Source: Acidiphilium sp. PA (GTDB taxonomy: Bacteria; Pseudomonadota; Alphaproteobacteria; Acetobacterales; Acetobacteraceae). Taken from it: a stretch of 64,000 nucleotides of DNA. This document shows positions 1 to 45,845 of this stretch, piece after piece. The stretch's first letter is position 1. Every line of letters starts with the position of its first letter. The notes beneath the pieces are model-generated. The model ran no database searches. It saw only the letters and a list, made by a program, of their open reading frames with translations, and was not told the DNA's origin. The translations under genes and the position numbers were made by a program. The stretch covers positions 1 to 64,000 of the forward strand of contig NZ_JAIMBY010000004.1 in the NCBI RefSeq assembly GCF_026191915.1, written 5' to 3'.

Positions 1-539
1 AGGCGGCCTTTGTCACGAGGCTTCGACCCGGTCGGTTGCCCAACAGAGCCGCTCGTCAGCTTCCGGATCAAATCGACAACTTTCCGGATGGAACCTTCCT
101 CCATAGATGATGCACGCCTTCGAGGCGCACTCTTGCCGGCGTCATAGCCGCGGATGCCGCCGCTCTCGGTCGTCTTGACGCTCTGACTATCGATCACGGC
201 GGCTGTCGGGCTCGCTTCGCGGCCAGCCCGCTCGCGGTCGAGCATAACCAGGTGGTGGTTGATCCGCTCCCAGGTACCGTCGTCGCGGAACCGTGCAAAC
301 CAGCGATAAACCGTGGGGGCGGGCGGGAAATCCTTGGGCAGCAGGCTCCAAGCGATGCCGCCGCGCAGGACGTATAATATCGCATTGACGATCTGTCGCA
401 TCTCCCACTTGCGCGGGCAGCCGCACGAACGCGGGGGAGGCAAAAACGGTGAAAGGATCGCCCACTCTGCATCGGTGACGTCACTTCCATAACGTAGGCC
501 TGCGCGGCTATGCTGCGCGCGGGTGGTCGGCGTCCACAT
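1..539 (-). pseudogene. IS5-family transposase, 5' part with aberrant tail
   Basis: The frame starts at ATG 539 and stays open to the window edge. It gives an N-terminus MWTPTTRAQHSRAGLRYGSD, then a DUF4096-like segment with WAILSPFLPPPR, RKWEMRQIVNAILYVLRGG and FPPAPTVYRWFARFRDDGTW, as in IS5 transposases. The first catalytic aspartate lies in AAVIDSQSVKTTESGG (about residues 116-131). After GGIRGYDAGK, where the family normally continues with a Lys/Arg-rich KGRKRHI block, the sequence switches to an unrelated SAPRRRASSMEEG run. This points to a recombination or deletion event, so the gene is probably inactive. The far part is outside the window. Confidence 0.6.
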
Positions 540-43213: not shown

Positions 43214-44056
43214 TCATTTCGCCCCGGTGATGGGGATCGGATTACGCCGATAGGCCGCAAGCCCGCGCCCCACCATCCCACCCGCCGGGGCGGCACCGCC
43301 CGGTGCGGCAATCGGCAGGATCTGCGGATGGCCATGCAACCCGGCAAATGCGAAACCACCCACCCCGAACTGGCGCAGCGCGATCGCCCCGGGAGCGGGT
43401 TTCGCATCCGCTTTCGCCGGTTTCGGAATACCCGCCATGCCCGCCGCAACCGGCAGCAGCACCGGTGCCGGCCCACCGTGATCATGCCAGACCGCCAGCA
43501 CTTTCTGCTCATAGGGCAAGCCGAGCGCCGGCGTTTCGGAATGATACGCGGCCACCGCCGGATCCCACCCGCCCAACCGGGTTTTCAGCCGGCGCAGAAA
43601 CTGCGCCCCGTACAGCGCGTTCGAAGCGGGGTCGAACGCCTGGGCCAGTGTGGCAAACGCGGTCGGATGGTGCAGCAGATTGATCTGCATGCAGCCGATG
43701 TCGAGCGAGGTGATGCCCTGATTTTCAAAACTCTGGGCCGCCGCGACGGCCTGCGCTTCGGTGGCATAGATATGGCCGGTGCCATTGGCATCGATCGTCC
43801 AGGGCCAGGGCGCCACCTGCCCGGTCTGCGGATCACGCTGACCGGATTCCACGGTCGCCACGGCGTTGAGCAGGCCGGCCGGCGTATGAACGACCCCCTC
43901 CGCGAGATTGAGCGCAGCGGCGCACAACGCCGAAGGATCACCGATCGGGCCCAGCGGCGGCACGATGCCGGCGGGCAACGCCCAGGCGCCGGGCAGGCGC
44001 GCCAGCAGGGTCGCGAGCCCGACAAGACCGATCACGGTGGCGCGTTTGCAATCCAT
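43214..44056 (-). CDS. Lytic transglycosylase-like protein
   Basis: The 280-residue protein has a hydrophobic N-terminal signal (VIGLVGLATLLARLPGAWAL) and an SLT-like domain. LLNAVATVESGQRDPQTGQV carries the catalytic glutamate, ITSLDIGCMQINLLHHP is the second block, NALYGAQFLRRLKTRLGGWD and AVAAYHSETPAL complete it. It would cleave peptidoglycan glycan strands in the periplasm. The C-terminal 70 residues are Pro/Ala/Gly-rich and unlike the family core. It ends ten bases from the tolB stop in the opposite direction. Confidence 0.8.
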   Translation of the reverse strand: MDCKRATVIGLVGLATLLARLPGAWALPAGIVPPLGPIGDPSALCAAALNLAEGVVHTPAGLLNAVATVESGQRDPQTGQVAPWPWTIDANGTGHIYATEAQAVAAAQSFENQGITSLDIGCMQINLLHHPTAFATLAQAFDPASNALYGAQFLRRLKTRLGGWDPAVAAYHSETPALGLPYEQKVLAVWHDHGGPAPVLLPVAAGMAGIPKPAKADAKPAPGAIALRQFGVGGFAFAGLHGHPQILPIAAPGGAAPAGGMVGRGLAAYRRNPIPITGAK

Positions 44057-44186
44057 ATCGGGCAGTATCCGCCCCGATGCTTAAAATTTAATAAAATTCC
44101 GACCGAAAATACGCCACCATGCCTCGGTTGCACCCAAACACCCCGGATTCCTCCACAATGAGCGATGCTGCACTGCAAAAAAGTTC

Positions 44187-44215
44187 TTGCATCATGCCGG
44201 CGGTCTGGATATAAC
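44187..44215 (+). promoter_or_regulatory. Promoter of the intergenic small RNA
   Basis: The -35 box TTGCAT (44187-44192) and the -10 box TATAAC (44210-44215) are separated by exactly 17 bases. A start at about 44222 would give the small RNA ending at the terminator near 44308. Boxes and spacing are read directly; activity is inferred. Confidence 0.75.
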
Positions 44216-44221
44216 GATCTC

Positions 44222-44308
44222 AGCAACACGGCGACCAGTTCGCTTTGTTTGCTTTCTTGGACGTTTCCTCCCTAAACTTGGCGGCACGCGAGTGCCGCCC
44301 TTTTTTTT
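44222..44308 (+). ncRNA. Candidate alpha-r8/MmgR-like small RNA
   Basis: About 87 bases are framed by a good promoter and a strong intrinsic terminator, with no reading frame of its own and 115 bases before the lutB start. The middle carries TTTCCTCCCT (44264-44273), an anti-Shine-Dalgarno-like single-stranded segment. As I recall, it is identical to the 10-mer conserved in the alphaproteobacterial alpha-r8 family, whose member MmgR limits polyhydroxybutyrate accumulation in Sinorhizobium. The terminator hairpin follows seven bases later, as in that family. The 5' end is estimated from the -10 box. It could instead be an untranslated leader of unknown purpose, but the terminator and the separate lutB promoter argue for an independent RNA. 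Confidence 0.72.
44280..44308 (+). terminator. Intrinsic terminator of the small RNA
   Basis: A perfect 8-bp stem GGCGGCAC/GTGCCGCC encloses a GCGA tetraloop and is followed by C and eight T residues. It is not preceded by any protein gene on this strand for about 1.07 kb, so it must end a non-coding transcript. Confidence 0.88.
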
Positions 44309-44356
44309 GACCGGGAAAGAAATCCCCCACACCGCAAGACCGTCCGTTTGGCGGCT

Positions 44357-44384
44357 TTGCTTCACGACCGGCACGCTCTACAAT
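44357..44384 (+). promoter_or_regulatory. Probable lutBC promoter
   Basis: TTGCTT (44357-44362) and TACAAT (44379-44384) are 16 bases apart, downstream of the small RNA terminator. Transcription would begin near 44391, leaving a leader of about 33 bases that contains the lutB ribosome site AAGGAG. Confidence 0.55.
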
Positions 44385-44423
44385 GGACTGCGCTCGCAAG
44401 CGCCCGACACCAAGGAGTGGCCG

Positions 44424-45845
44424 ATGCTCAATACCAGCCCCGATTTCAAGGACAATGTTCGCCACGCCATGGCGGATGCGGGGCTGCAAAAAGCGCTCGA
44501 CCGCGCCAAAAAACCCTTCGCCCTGTCGCGCGCCAACGCCGTGGCCGGGTTGCCGGAGTTCGAGGCCCTGCGCGAAACCGCCAAGGGCATCAAGAACCAC
44601 ACCATCGCCCATCTCGATTACTACCTCGAAGCCTTCACCAGCCAGGTCGAATCCAAGGGCGGCCAGGTCCACTGGTGCCGCACCGCCGAGGATGCCCGCA
44701 ACGCCGTGCTCGGCATCTGCCAGCGCGTCGGCGCGCGCACCGCGACCAAGGGCAAGTCGATGATCTCCGAGGAAATCGGCCTCAACGACTTCCTCGCCGA
44801 GCAGGGCATCGAGCCGATCGAGACCGATCTCGGTGAATACATCCTGCAATTGCGCAACGAGGCGCCCAGCCACATCATCGGCCCGGCGTTTCACCTCAAC
44901 CGCGAGGATTGGGAGGAAAGCTTCCGCGCCGCCCACACCCATCTGCCGGCCGACCGCATCTTCGCCGAAAAACGCGACATCCAGGCCGAGGCCCGTGCCG
45001 TGCTGCGCGAAAAATTCCTCGCCGCCGATGTCGGCATCACCGGTGCCAATTTCCTGATCGCGGAAACCGGCACCTCGATCATCGTGACCAACGAAGGCAA
45101 CGGCGACCTCACCCAAACCCTGCCGCGCGTGCACATCGTACTGGCATCGCTGGAAAAAGTCGTCCCCACCATCGAGGATACGCTCTCCCTGCTGCGCGTG
45201 CTCGCCCGCTCGGCAACCGGGCAGGAATTCTCGGTCTACACCACGTTTTCCACCGGCCCGAAGCGCCCGGGCGACCTCGACGGGCCAGAGGAATACCACG
45301 TCGTCCTGCTCGACAACGGCCGCTCCAACATGGTCGGCTCCGCGTTCCAGGACATGCTGCGCTGCATCCGCTGCTCGGCCTGCATGAACCATTGCCCGGT
45401 CTATCTCACGGTCGGCGGCCATGCCTATGGCTCGATGTATTCCGGCCCGATGGGCAGCGTACTGACCCCGGCGATCTTCGGCGCCGACCAGGCGCATCTG
45501 CTGCCCAGCGCCTCCACCTTCTGCGGCAAATGCGAGAGCGTCTGCCCGATGAAAATCCCGCTCACCGGCATGATGCGCCACTGGCGCGAACGTGCGTTCG
45601 AACGCAATCTCTCCCCGGCCACCGGCCGCTACGGCATTGGCGTGTGGGGATTTTTCGCCCGCCGGCCCGCGCTCTACCGCGCCGTCACGCGCATCGCCTC
45701 CTGGAGCCTCGGCCTCGCCGGGCGCAAACGCGGCTCGTTCCGCGCCCTGCCGCTCGCCGGCGCCTGGACCAGGGACCGCGACATGCCCGCCCCCGAAGGC
45801 GAGACGTTTTTTGCCCGCTATGCCAGGGAGCAGCGCAGCCGATGA
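44424..45845 (+). CDS. lutB: Lactate utilization iron-sulfur protein LutB
   Basis: The 473-residue protein has GQVHWCRTAEDARNAVLGIC and ISEEIGLNDFLAEQGIEP near the N-terminus. Two 4Fe-4S clusters follow: CIRCSACMNHCPVY (about residues 315-328) and CGKCESVCPMKIP (about 369-381). GITGANFLIAETGTSIIVTN is the LUD domain. LutB works with LutA and LutC in L-lactate oxidation to pyruvate. The start ATG 44424 has AAGGAG six bases upstream. Overlap with lutC is ATGA. No lutA is present in the window. Confidence 0.92.
   Translation: MLNTSPDFKDNVRHAMADAGLQKALDRAKKPFALSRANAVAGLPEFEALRETAKGIKNHTIAHLDYYLEAFTSQVESKGGQVHWCRTAEDARNAVLGICQRVGARTATKGKSMISEEIGLNDFLAEQGIEPIETDLGEYILQLRNEAPSHIIGPAFHLNREDWEESFRAAHTHLPADRIFAEKRDIQAEARAVLREKFLAADVGITGANFLIAETGTSIIVTNEGNGDLTQTLPRVHIVLASLEKVVPTIEDTLSLLRVLARSATGQEFSVYTTFSTGPKRPGDLDGPEEYHVVLLDNGRSNMVGSAFQDMLRCIRCSACMNHCPVYLTVGGHAYGSMYSGPMGSVLTPAIFGADQAHLLPSASTFCGKCESVCPMKIPLTGMMRHWRERAFERNLSPATGRYGIGVWGFFARRPALYRAVTRIASWSLGLAGRKRGSFRALPLAGAWTRDRDMPAPEGETFFARYAREQRSR

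Follow-up and report, generated by a model that had tools for sequence, protein, structure and literature searches.

An alpha-r8 (MmgR/suhB) family small RNA gene in Acidiphilium and the PhaR-operator-like element upstream of its promoter

Our analysis of a 64,000-nucleotide stretch of an acid-loving Acidiphilium genome, hereafter the window, places an sRNA gene between a transglycosylase-like gene and lutB, whose product is 99% identical to LutB of Acidiphilium rubrum ATCC 35905. On the evidence of its sequence, this gene is an alpha-r8/MmgR-type sRNA gene, one that was to be expected in view of how widespread the family is. We consider it very probable that it is a free-standing, trans-acting alpha-r8 (MmgR/SisA-type) gene of 87 nt that would be repressed by PhaR and whose RNA would act, with the assistance of Hfq, as an anti-Shine-Dalgarno repressor. 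The value added here is a testable wiring scheme that leads from PhaR to the alpha-r8 sRNAs. In the literature, we found a biochemical demonstration of the PhaR-mmgR link for Sinorhizobium meliloti only; the link appears to reach the Acetobacteraceae as well and, within Acidiphilium, to cover several sibling copies together.

Family membership and elements of the gene

The Rfam family RF00519 (suhB, 'Makes More Granules Regulator') matched the window far beyond chance, scoring 52.1 bits where 41 is the gathering score, with E = 7.8e-8 in a search of the window, and the alignment spans the full model (positions 1-77 of 77). The 10-mer of the gene is identical to the published alpha-r8 core, 5′-UUUCCUCCCU-3′ (PMC12559287). 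The first-pass annotation had named both the family and its core, and it was correct in both, because RF00519 scored over its gathering score and the 10-mer equals the published core. Its further proposal, that the gene extends the family into this lineage, does not hold. Alpha-r8 RNAs are already reported throughout the Alphaproteobacteria, Rickettsiales excepted (PMC12559287), and the family has been known since 2005 to be multicopy in many members of the class (PMC1273637), so its presence here was to be expected. Within the same bacterial family, at least 50 of 60 genomes, our own included, have a match at E <= 0.001. Across the 100 genomes searched, again with our own included, at least 71 have a match at this threshold and at least 66 have one over the cut-off; this search used stricter filters, 30 loci were fetched from it, and absences among the matches listed are not firm. 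Among its control genomes, matches, not necessarily over the cut-off, were listed in Caulobacter and Thermus composti. Our literature search found no paper treating MmgR together with Acetobacteraceae and, judged by titles, none on sRNAs of Acidiphilium.

The genome itself has five RF00519 matches, two over the gathering score and three under it (Table 1). The exact 10-mer is present in 32 of 35 loci that the RF00519 model retrieved from this genome and the 100-genome search. At the edge of the window, positions 1-106 (- strand) match the group II intron family RF02003 with 58.7 bits, truncated by the window edge.

All of the elements named by the first-pass annotation (a TTGCAT-17-TATAAC promoter, a body of about 87 nt, the 10-mer, an 8-bp stem with a GCGA loop, and T8) are present where it had placed them, and a candidate for the separate lutB promoter that it had put after the terminator was found as well. 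When both strands of the 64-kb window are considered, the promoter, 10-mer, stem and T8 strings are each found a single time. From a predicted start at about 44222 to the end of T8, the transcript would be 87 nt long. A strict sigma-70 promoter scan of the region gave no site; it missed this one because it demands T as the last -10 base, and TATAAC ends in C. The terminator scan recovered the stem and U-run, but since it found 3 sites in the 1.5 kb scanned against 1.9 expected from shuffling, the terminator by itself is not significant. Among 61 aligned copies, the terminator stem shows two-sided changes at six of its eight consensus pairs. These copies were selected by the 10-mer or two variants of it plus a U-run, so the conservation of the 10-mer in this alignment is by construction.

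None of 200 dinucleotide-shuffled sequences folds as well as the transcript (z = -3.35). Its minimum-energy structure, with a frequency of 0.079, has a 3-pair helix over part of the 10-mer; in the alignment consensus the 10-mer is unpaired, and the terminator is the only structure shown. The RF00519 model aligns through the hairpin 5′ of the 10-mer with a non-standard pair, and the single-sequence fold favours a different 5′ hairpin.

Other alphaproteobacterial RNAs are built for the same kind of pairing, and NfeR (alpha-r14) uses CU-rich anti-Shine-Dalgarno motifs. AbcR (alpha-r15) likewise has them, together with partial homology to RF00519 (PMC7143759). Nevertheless, we regard it as extremely unlikely that the gene belongs to either of these types instead of alpha-r8. 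Over these bases cmscan ranks RF00519 as the best of its clan, the synteny is that of alpha-r8, and a single 10-mer in about 87 nt (predicted ends) differs from the two motifs of AbcR1 (120 nt) and AbcR2 (114 nt) (PMC7143759).

Table 1. Features of the alpha-r8 locus in the window and RF00519 copies in the genome
Feature	Position	Strand	Evidence
Transglycosylase-like gene, divergent, recurrent 5′ neighbour of alpha-r8	43214..44056	-	Pfam SLT, 24.8 bits (cut-off 21.3); synteny
PhaR-operator-like element ATGCTGCACTGCAAAA	44165-44180	+	No difference among the 8 aligned lutB-linked orthologs (own one counted)
-35 element TTGCAT	44187-44192	+	Sequence; TTGC kept in 8/8 lutB-linked orthologs, own included
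-10 element TATAAC, 17-nt spacer from -35	44210-44215	+	Sequence; TATA kept in 8/8 lutB-linked orthologs, own included
alpha-r8 (MmgR/suhB, RF00519) sRNA, about 87 nt	44222..44308	+	cmscan; ortholog conservation; 5′ end predicted from -10
10-mer seed UUUCCUCCCU, anti-Shine-Dalgarno (reads TTTCCTCCCT in the window)	44264-44273	+	Exact copy of published family core (PMC12559287)
Intrinsic terminator: 8-bp stem with GCGA loop (44280-44299), one C, T8 (44301-44308)	44280-44308	+	Terminator scan; paired changes in 61 copies
Candidate separate lutB promoter TTGCTT-16-TACAAT	44357-44384	+	Sequence, downstream of terminator
lutB, occupying the FGase position of relatives	44424..45845	+	Pfam LUD_dom, LutB_C; synteny
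RF00519 copy, window	44244-44315	+	52.1 bits; exact 10-mer
RF00519 copy	C86:60474		50.1 bits; exact 10-mer
RF00519 copy	C45:10871		40.6 bits, slightly below gathering score; exact 10-mer
RF00519 copy (L154)	C86:62259-62336		35.0 bits; diverged seed
RF00519 copy	C11:53161		33.7 bits; seed TTTTCTCCCT

Genomic place of the gene and its relation to lutB

The order transglycosylase-sRNA-lutB is found in 8 of 13 Acidiphilium genomes (our own, G003, G005, G006, G007, G010, G011 and G012). When these eight regions were aligned with an FGase-linked locus of the same genus (L122 in G001), the operator-like element, -35, -10, sRNA body and terminator were conserved and the flanks had diverged; conservation is poor in the spacer that separates the sRNA from lutB. 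A comparison of synteny with relatives had been suggested by the first-pass annotation. The order at L122 is transglycosylase-sRNA-FGase, with the FGase gene convergent and the sRNA directed toward it. At two more loci of the genus, L124 (G002) and L128 (G004), FGase adjoins the sRNA and no transglycosylase match lies within the stretch, and the copies fetched from G008 and G009 have neither gene adjacent.

The transglycosylase-sRNA-FGase order was also observed in 11 of 30 loci (L006-L035), namely L009, L010, L011, L014, L020, L021, L026, L030, L033, L034 and L035; three of these (L010, L034 and L035) belong to other families of the class. FGase is the reported alpha-r8 neighbour in most species (PMC12559287), an adjacency that is usual and not defining, as sisB-D and other paralogs are also without FGase. 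The window copy has no adjacent FGase; lutB stands in that position and the transglycosylase side is retained. Three FGase-family genes are present in the genome, on contigs C12 and C4, and neither contig has an RF00519 match. Because of the transglycosylase-sRNA-FGase synteny in relatives, we read the window copy as the canonical alpha-r8 gene: it appears to be the positional ortholog of the FGase-linked one. The arrangement suggests that the FGase side was replaced by lutBC inside the genus, and that the lactate neighbourhood is a later, genus-level rearrangement. The transglycosylase-sRNA-FGase order serves as a positional anchor for tracing orthologs.

The first-pass annotation had also attached meaning to the lactate genes next door. 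A general link between alpha-r8 and lactate utilization was rejected, since the exact 10-mer occurs at 3 of 80 lutB loci, all three in Acidiphilium, and FGase is the usual neighbour elsewhere. This count refers to the exact 10-mer only, and its absence at loci such as L045 and L046 is uninformative because little upstream DNA is available there.

The same count bears on whether the element acts in cis. Since in 8 of 13 Acidiphilium genomes lutB follows it directly and in the same orientation, it could be a leader or attenuator of lutB, with a start near 44222 and read-through or stop at the terminator controlling lutBC. We judge this very unlikely. The same RNA is found at four further loci of this genome and stands convergent beside FGase in relatives; its terminator is followed, still ahead of the gene, by a candidate promoter that would serve lutB separately; the sRNA-lutB spacer is poorly conserved; and the 10-mer is found at so few lutB loci, exclusively in Acidiphilium.

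A protein-coding reading has hardly any probability in our estimation. An N-terminal extension of lutB would make use of the single frame that is open from TTG at 44187 into lutB, and that is open also in the shown part of L136 and L146. However, stops interrupt the upstream frame in 5 of 8 genomes, and the 10-mer and the ATG lie between 129 and 161 bases apart without the frame being kept; on these two grounds, 44187-45845 was rejected as one long lutB. A small protein gene is opposed by a transcript without ATG, and either form of the reading by conservation that tracks the RNA model, with paired stem changes.

A PhaR-operator-like element upstream of the promoter

PhaR is the sensor protein of the stored carbon polymer. 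A single PhaR gene, divergent from phaA, is present in the genome, along with two phasin genes and one Hfq gene. The most conserved block upstream of the sRNA is ATGCTGCACTGCAAAA, which ends 6 bp before the -35 element. Its core, TGCACTGCA (44169-44177), fits YGCRNYGCR, a part of the PhaR motif known from S. meliloti (PMC12542648), and its 12-mer fits the Bradyrhizobium diazoefficiens consensus TGCRNYGCASMA at 11 of 12 positions (PMC6201568). At phaP1 of B. diazoefficiens, too, a footprinted PhaR site reportedly lies 6 bp upstream of the -35 (PMC6201568). In S. meliloti, purified PhaR shifts the mmgR promoter in EMSA, changes in the palindrome abolish the shifts, and depletion of phaR is said to increase MmgR (PMC12542648). 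By its sequence, the block at 44165-44180 looks like a PhaR binding site.

A motif matching YGCRNYGCR is present within 140 nt before the 10-mer in 52 of 65 related copies and missing from 13, a set restricted to copies that passed the 10-mer-variant and terminator filters, with identical upstream sequences merged. Two copies were left out, L015 (last base of the 10-mer changed) and L025 (exact 10-mer, other filters failed). In a Markov control of 200 resamplings, 11.8 copies with the motif were expected (sd 2.9, maximum 19), a control that overstates independence because alpha-r8 copies share descent. Within the genus 31 of 37 copies have the motif, and outside it 21 of 28; the reversed motif was found in 1 and 4, respectively. 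Relative to the 10-mer, the motifs are concentrated around -95, -60 and -50.

Four of the five alpha-r8 copies in our genome have a PhaR-like motif upstream, and the fifth (C86:62259) has neither operator nor exact 10-mer. Across the 4.5 Mb of the genome, 7 distinct places fit a 16-base operator pattern: the promoters of phaP and of four alpha-r8 copies, an intergenic region between divergent genes, and a site inside a gene. Its reverse fits none. This test is not independent and is partly circular because the pattern was drawn from sites already seen. Upstream of phaP (L173), two PhaR-like motifs lie at -232 and -176 from the ATG and flank a promoter identified by eye, TTGACG-17-TATCTC, one just 5′ of the -35 and the other past the -10. 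The core and its 6-7 bp spacing to the -35 agree between the window sRNA and this phaP promoter. The phaR-phaA intergenic region has one PhaR-like motif, and none was found in the 400 nt upstream of the second phasin gene (L174).

PhaR and alpha-r8 also tend to be found together. Among the matches listed, 66 of the 100 genomes have both, 25 neither, 5 the sRNA only and 4 PhaR only; for the 60 genomes of the same family the corresponding numbers are 47, 10, 3 and 0. These counts come from related, partly incomplete genomes and take no account of kinship, so that Fisher values computed for them do not measure how likely chance is.

It is also conceivable, and in our view unlikely, that the gene belongs to the family and that the upstream block is some other element, with expression independent of PHB. 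PhaR binding is here predicted from sequence, one of the two phasin genes is without the motif, and the four alpha-r8 promoters of Caulobacter are reported to have no common motif (PMC12559287). Against this reading, the core and the -35 spacing match those of our own phasin promoter, the same spacing is found at the footprinted phaP1 site (PMC6201568), and PhaR of S. meliloti binds the mmgR promoter (PMC12542648). A PhaR operator is the reading that we prefer for the block.

Several other alpha-r8 loci were observed in passing. A second one adjoins RNase J and ProS genes in our genome (L155) and at ten more loci of the genus (L123, L127, L129, L131, L134, L141, L142, L145, L147 and L149); of these 11, all but L129 and L142 have a PhaR-like motif, placed about -60 or -70 from the 10-mer. 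The diverged seed GUGAAGCCUCCCUGUU is common to L154 and the alpha-r8-like RNAs L135, L143 and L144, none of which has a PhaR-like motif, and the seed-diverged RNA adjoins a GMC-oxidoreductase-like gene in our genome and in G006. It is possible that such RNAs are a sub-family with other targets. In another genome of the class, L007 (G091:C7:54432-55030) has three alpha-r8 copies in tandem within about 600 bp. Loci of other genera (L014, L017, L019, L023, L024, L026 and L028) have two PhaR-like sites, at about -95 and -47 from the 10-mer, the second of which contains TTGTGC. This is reminiscent of TTGTGCA, reportedly a heptamer of S. meliloti mmgR, and the full heptamer is absent from the promoter sequence in the window. 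Finally, a PhaR-like site lies between two divergent small genes (L248, C12:54204 of our genome), about 0.8 kb past the end of an FGase gene that has no adjacent alpha-r8 match.

Proposed regulation, target searches and known systems

Based on these observations, we predict that the gene is transcribed from its own sigma-70-type promoter to its intrinsic terminator, both of which are present in the sequence. PhaR would bind 44165-44180, 6 bp 5′ of the -35, and repress it. As PHB granules form, they would titrate PhaR, and the sRNA would be made alongside a phasin. We propose the PhaR step because of the operator, its conservation, its likeness to our own phasin promoter and the published control of mmgR in S. 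meliloti; genes activated by PhaR have been reported too (PMC6201568). The Hfq-bound sRNA would then, as in the family, pair through UUUCCUCCCU with G/A-rich Shine-Dalgarno regions and repress translation, so that genes for the uptake or storage of carbon may be held back post-transcriptionally under carbon surplus. The idea of Shine-Dalgarno pairing had been raised by the first-pass annotation, and it agrees with the published reading for the Caulobacter alpha-r8 members (PMC12559287). In Caulobacter, SisA is a repressor of mRNAs with which it is predicted to pair via the same conserved seed, and Hfq is required for the full effect of the interplay between SisA and the sponge CrfA (PMC12559287).

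A broader prediction, to which we give slightly better than even chances, is that several alpha-r8 siblings and a phasin form one PHB-gated module through the same PhaR operator, both in Acidiphilium and in its relatives among the Acetobacteraceae. If this is true, granule formation would free a dose of translational repressors, in contrast to Caulobacter, whose siblings are reported to have unrelated promoters.

With the aim of predicting targets, we searched the genome for GGGAGGA-N3-10-ATG and obtained 39 matches against 8 for the reversed pattern, an excess that is not specific to the sRNA because it is expected of Shine-Dalgarno sites. Many of these ATGs begin short frames only. Duplex energies refer to sites in 29 of 30 fetched loci, as L190 had no site under the filter; L203 and L204 represent a single site, and 9 of the 39 matches lie outside this set. 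Two candidates with long frames and low duplex energies were a 179-aa membrane protein (L199, -30.7 kcal/mol) and a porin-like gene (L202, Porin_2, -26.5 kcal/mol). The porin candidate is present in 3 of 13 genomes of the genus, in one case as a 52-residue piece. PhaA was rejected as a conserved target, since the pairing of 8 nt here (-24.9 kcal/mol) falls to 6 nt or fewer in the 19 relatives, out of 40 fetched loci, in which the start was located. Also rejected was lutB, whose start pairs at -11.5 kcal/mol, more weakly than the five other gene starts picked by hand, and pairing between phaP and the sRNA is weak (-14.2 kcal/mol). None of the candidate targets compared across relatives held up. 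Exact complements of the 10-mer outside alpha-r8 genes occur 3 times in the genome, three alpha-r8 genes being set apart, and were examined as sequence. No CrfA-like sponge was identified in this search, which covered exact 10-mer complements and would let shorter or broken matches escape.

In comparison with known systems, the window gene resembles MmgR of S. meliloti in its 10-mer seed, its terminator, a promoter site of the PhaR/AniA type and approximately in size (MmgR is 77 nt (PMC7143759), against about 87 nt predicted here). It differs in the lack of a neighbouring FGase, and S. meliloti has a single alpha-r8 copy (PMC12559287) where the Acidiphilium genome has five matches. SisA-SisD of Caulobacter crescentus share the 10-mer seed and the presence of several copies per genome, with sisA at an FGase gene. 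For these siblings, no common promoter motif is reported (PMC12559287), whereas four of the five copies here have a PhaR-like motif. The suhB RNA element described in 2005 belongs to the same Rfam family, and was presented as an RNA that probably does not code for protein and that has a promoter and a terminator to itself (PMC1273637). That paper gives no association with specific neighbours (PMC1273637), whereas in the loci fetched here transglycosylase and FGase recur on opposite sides of the gene.
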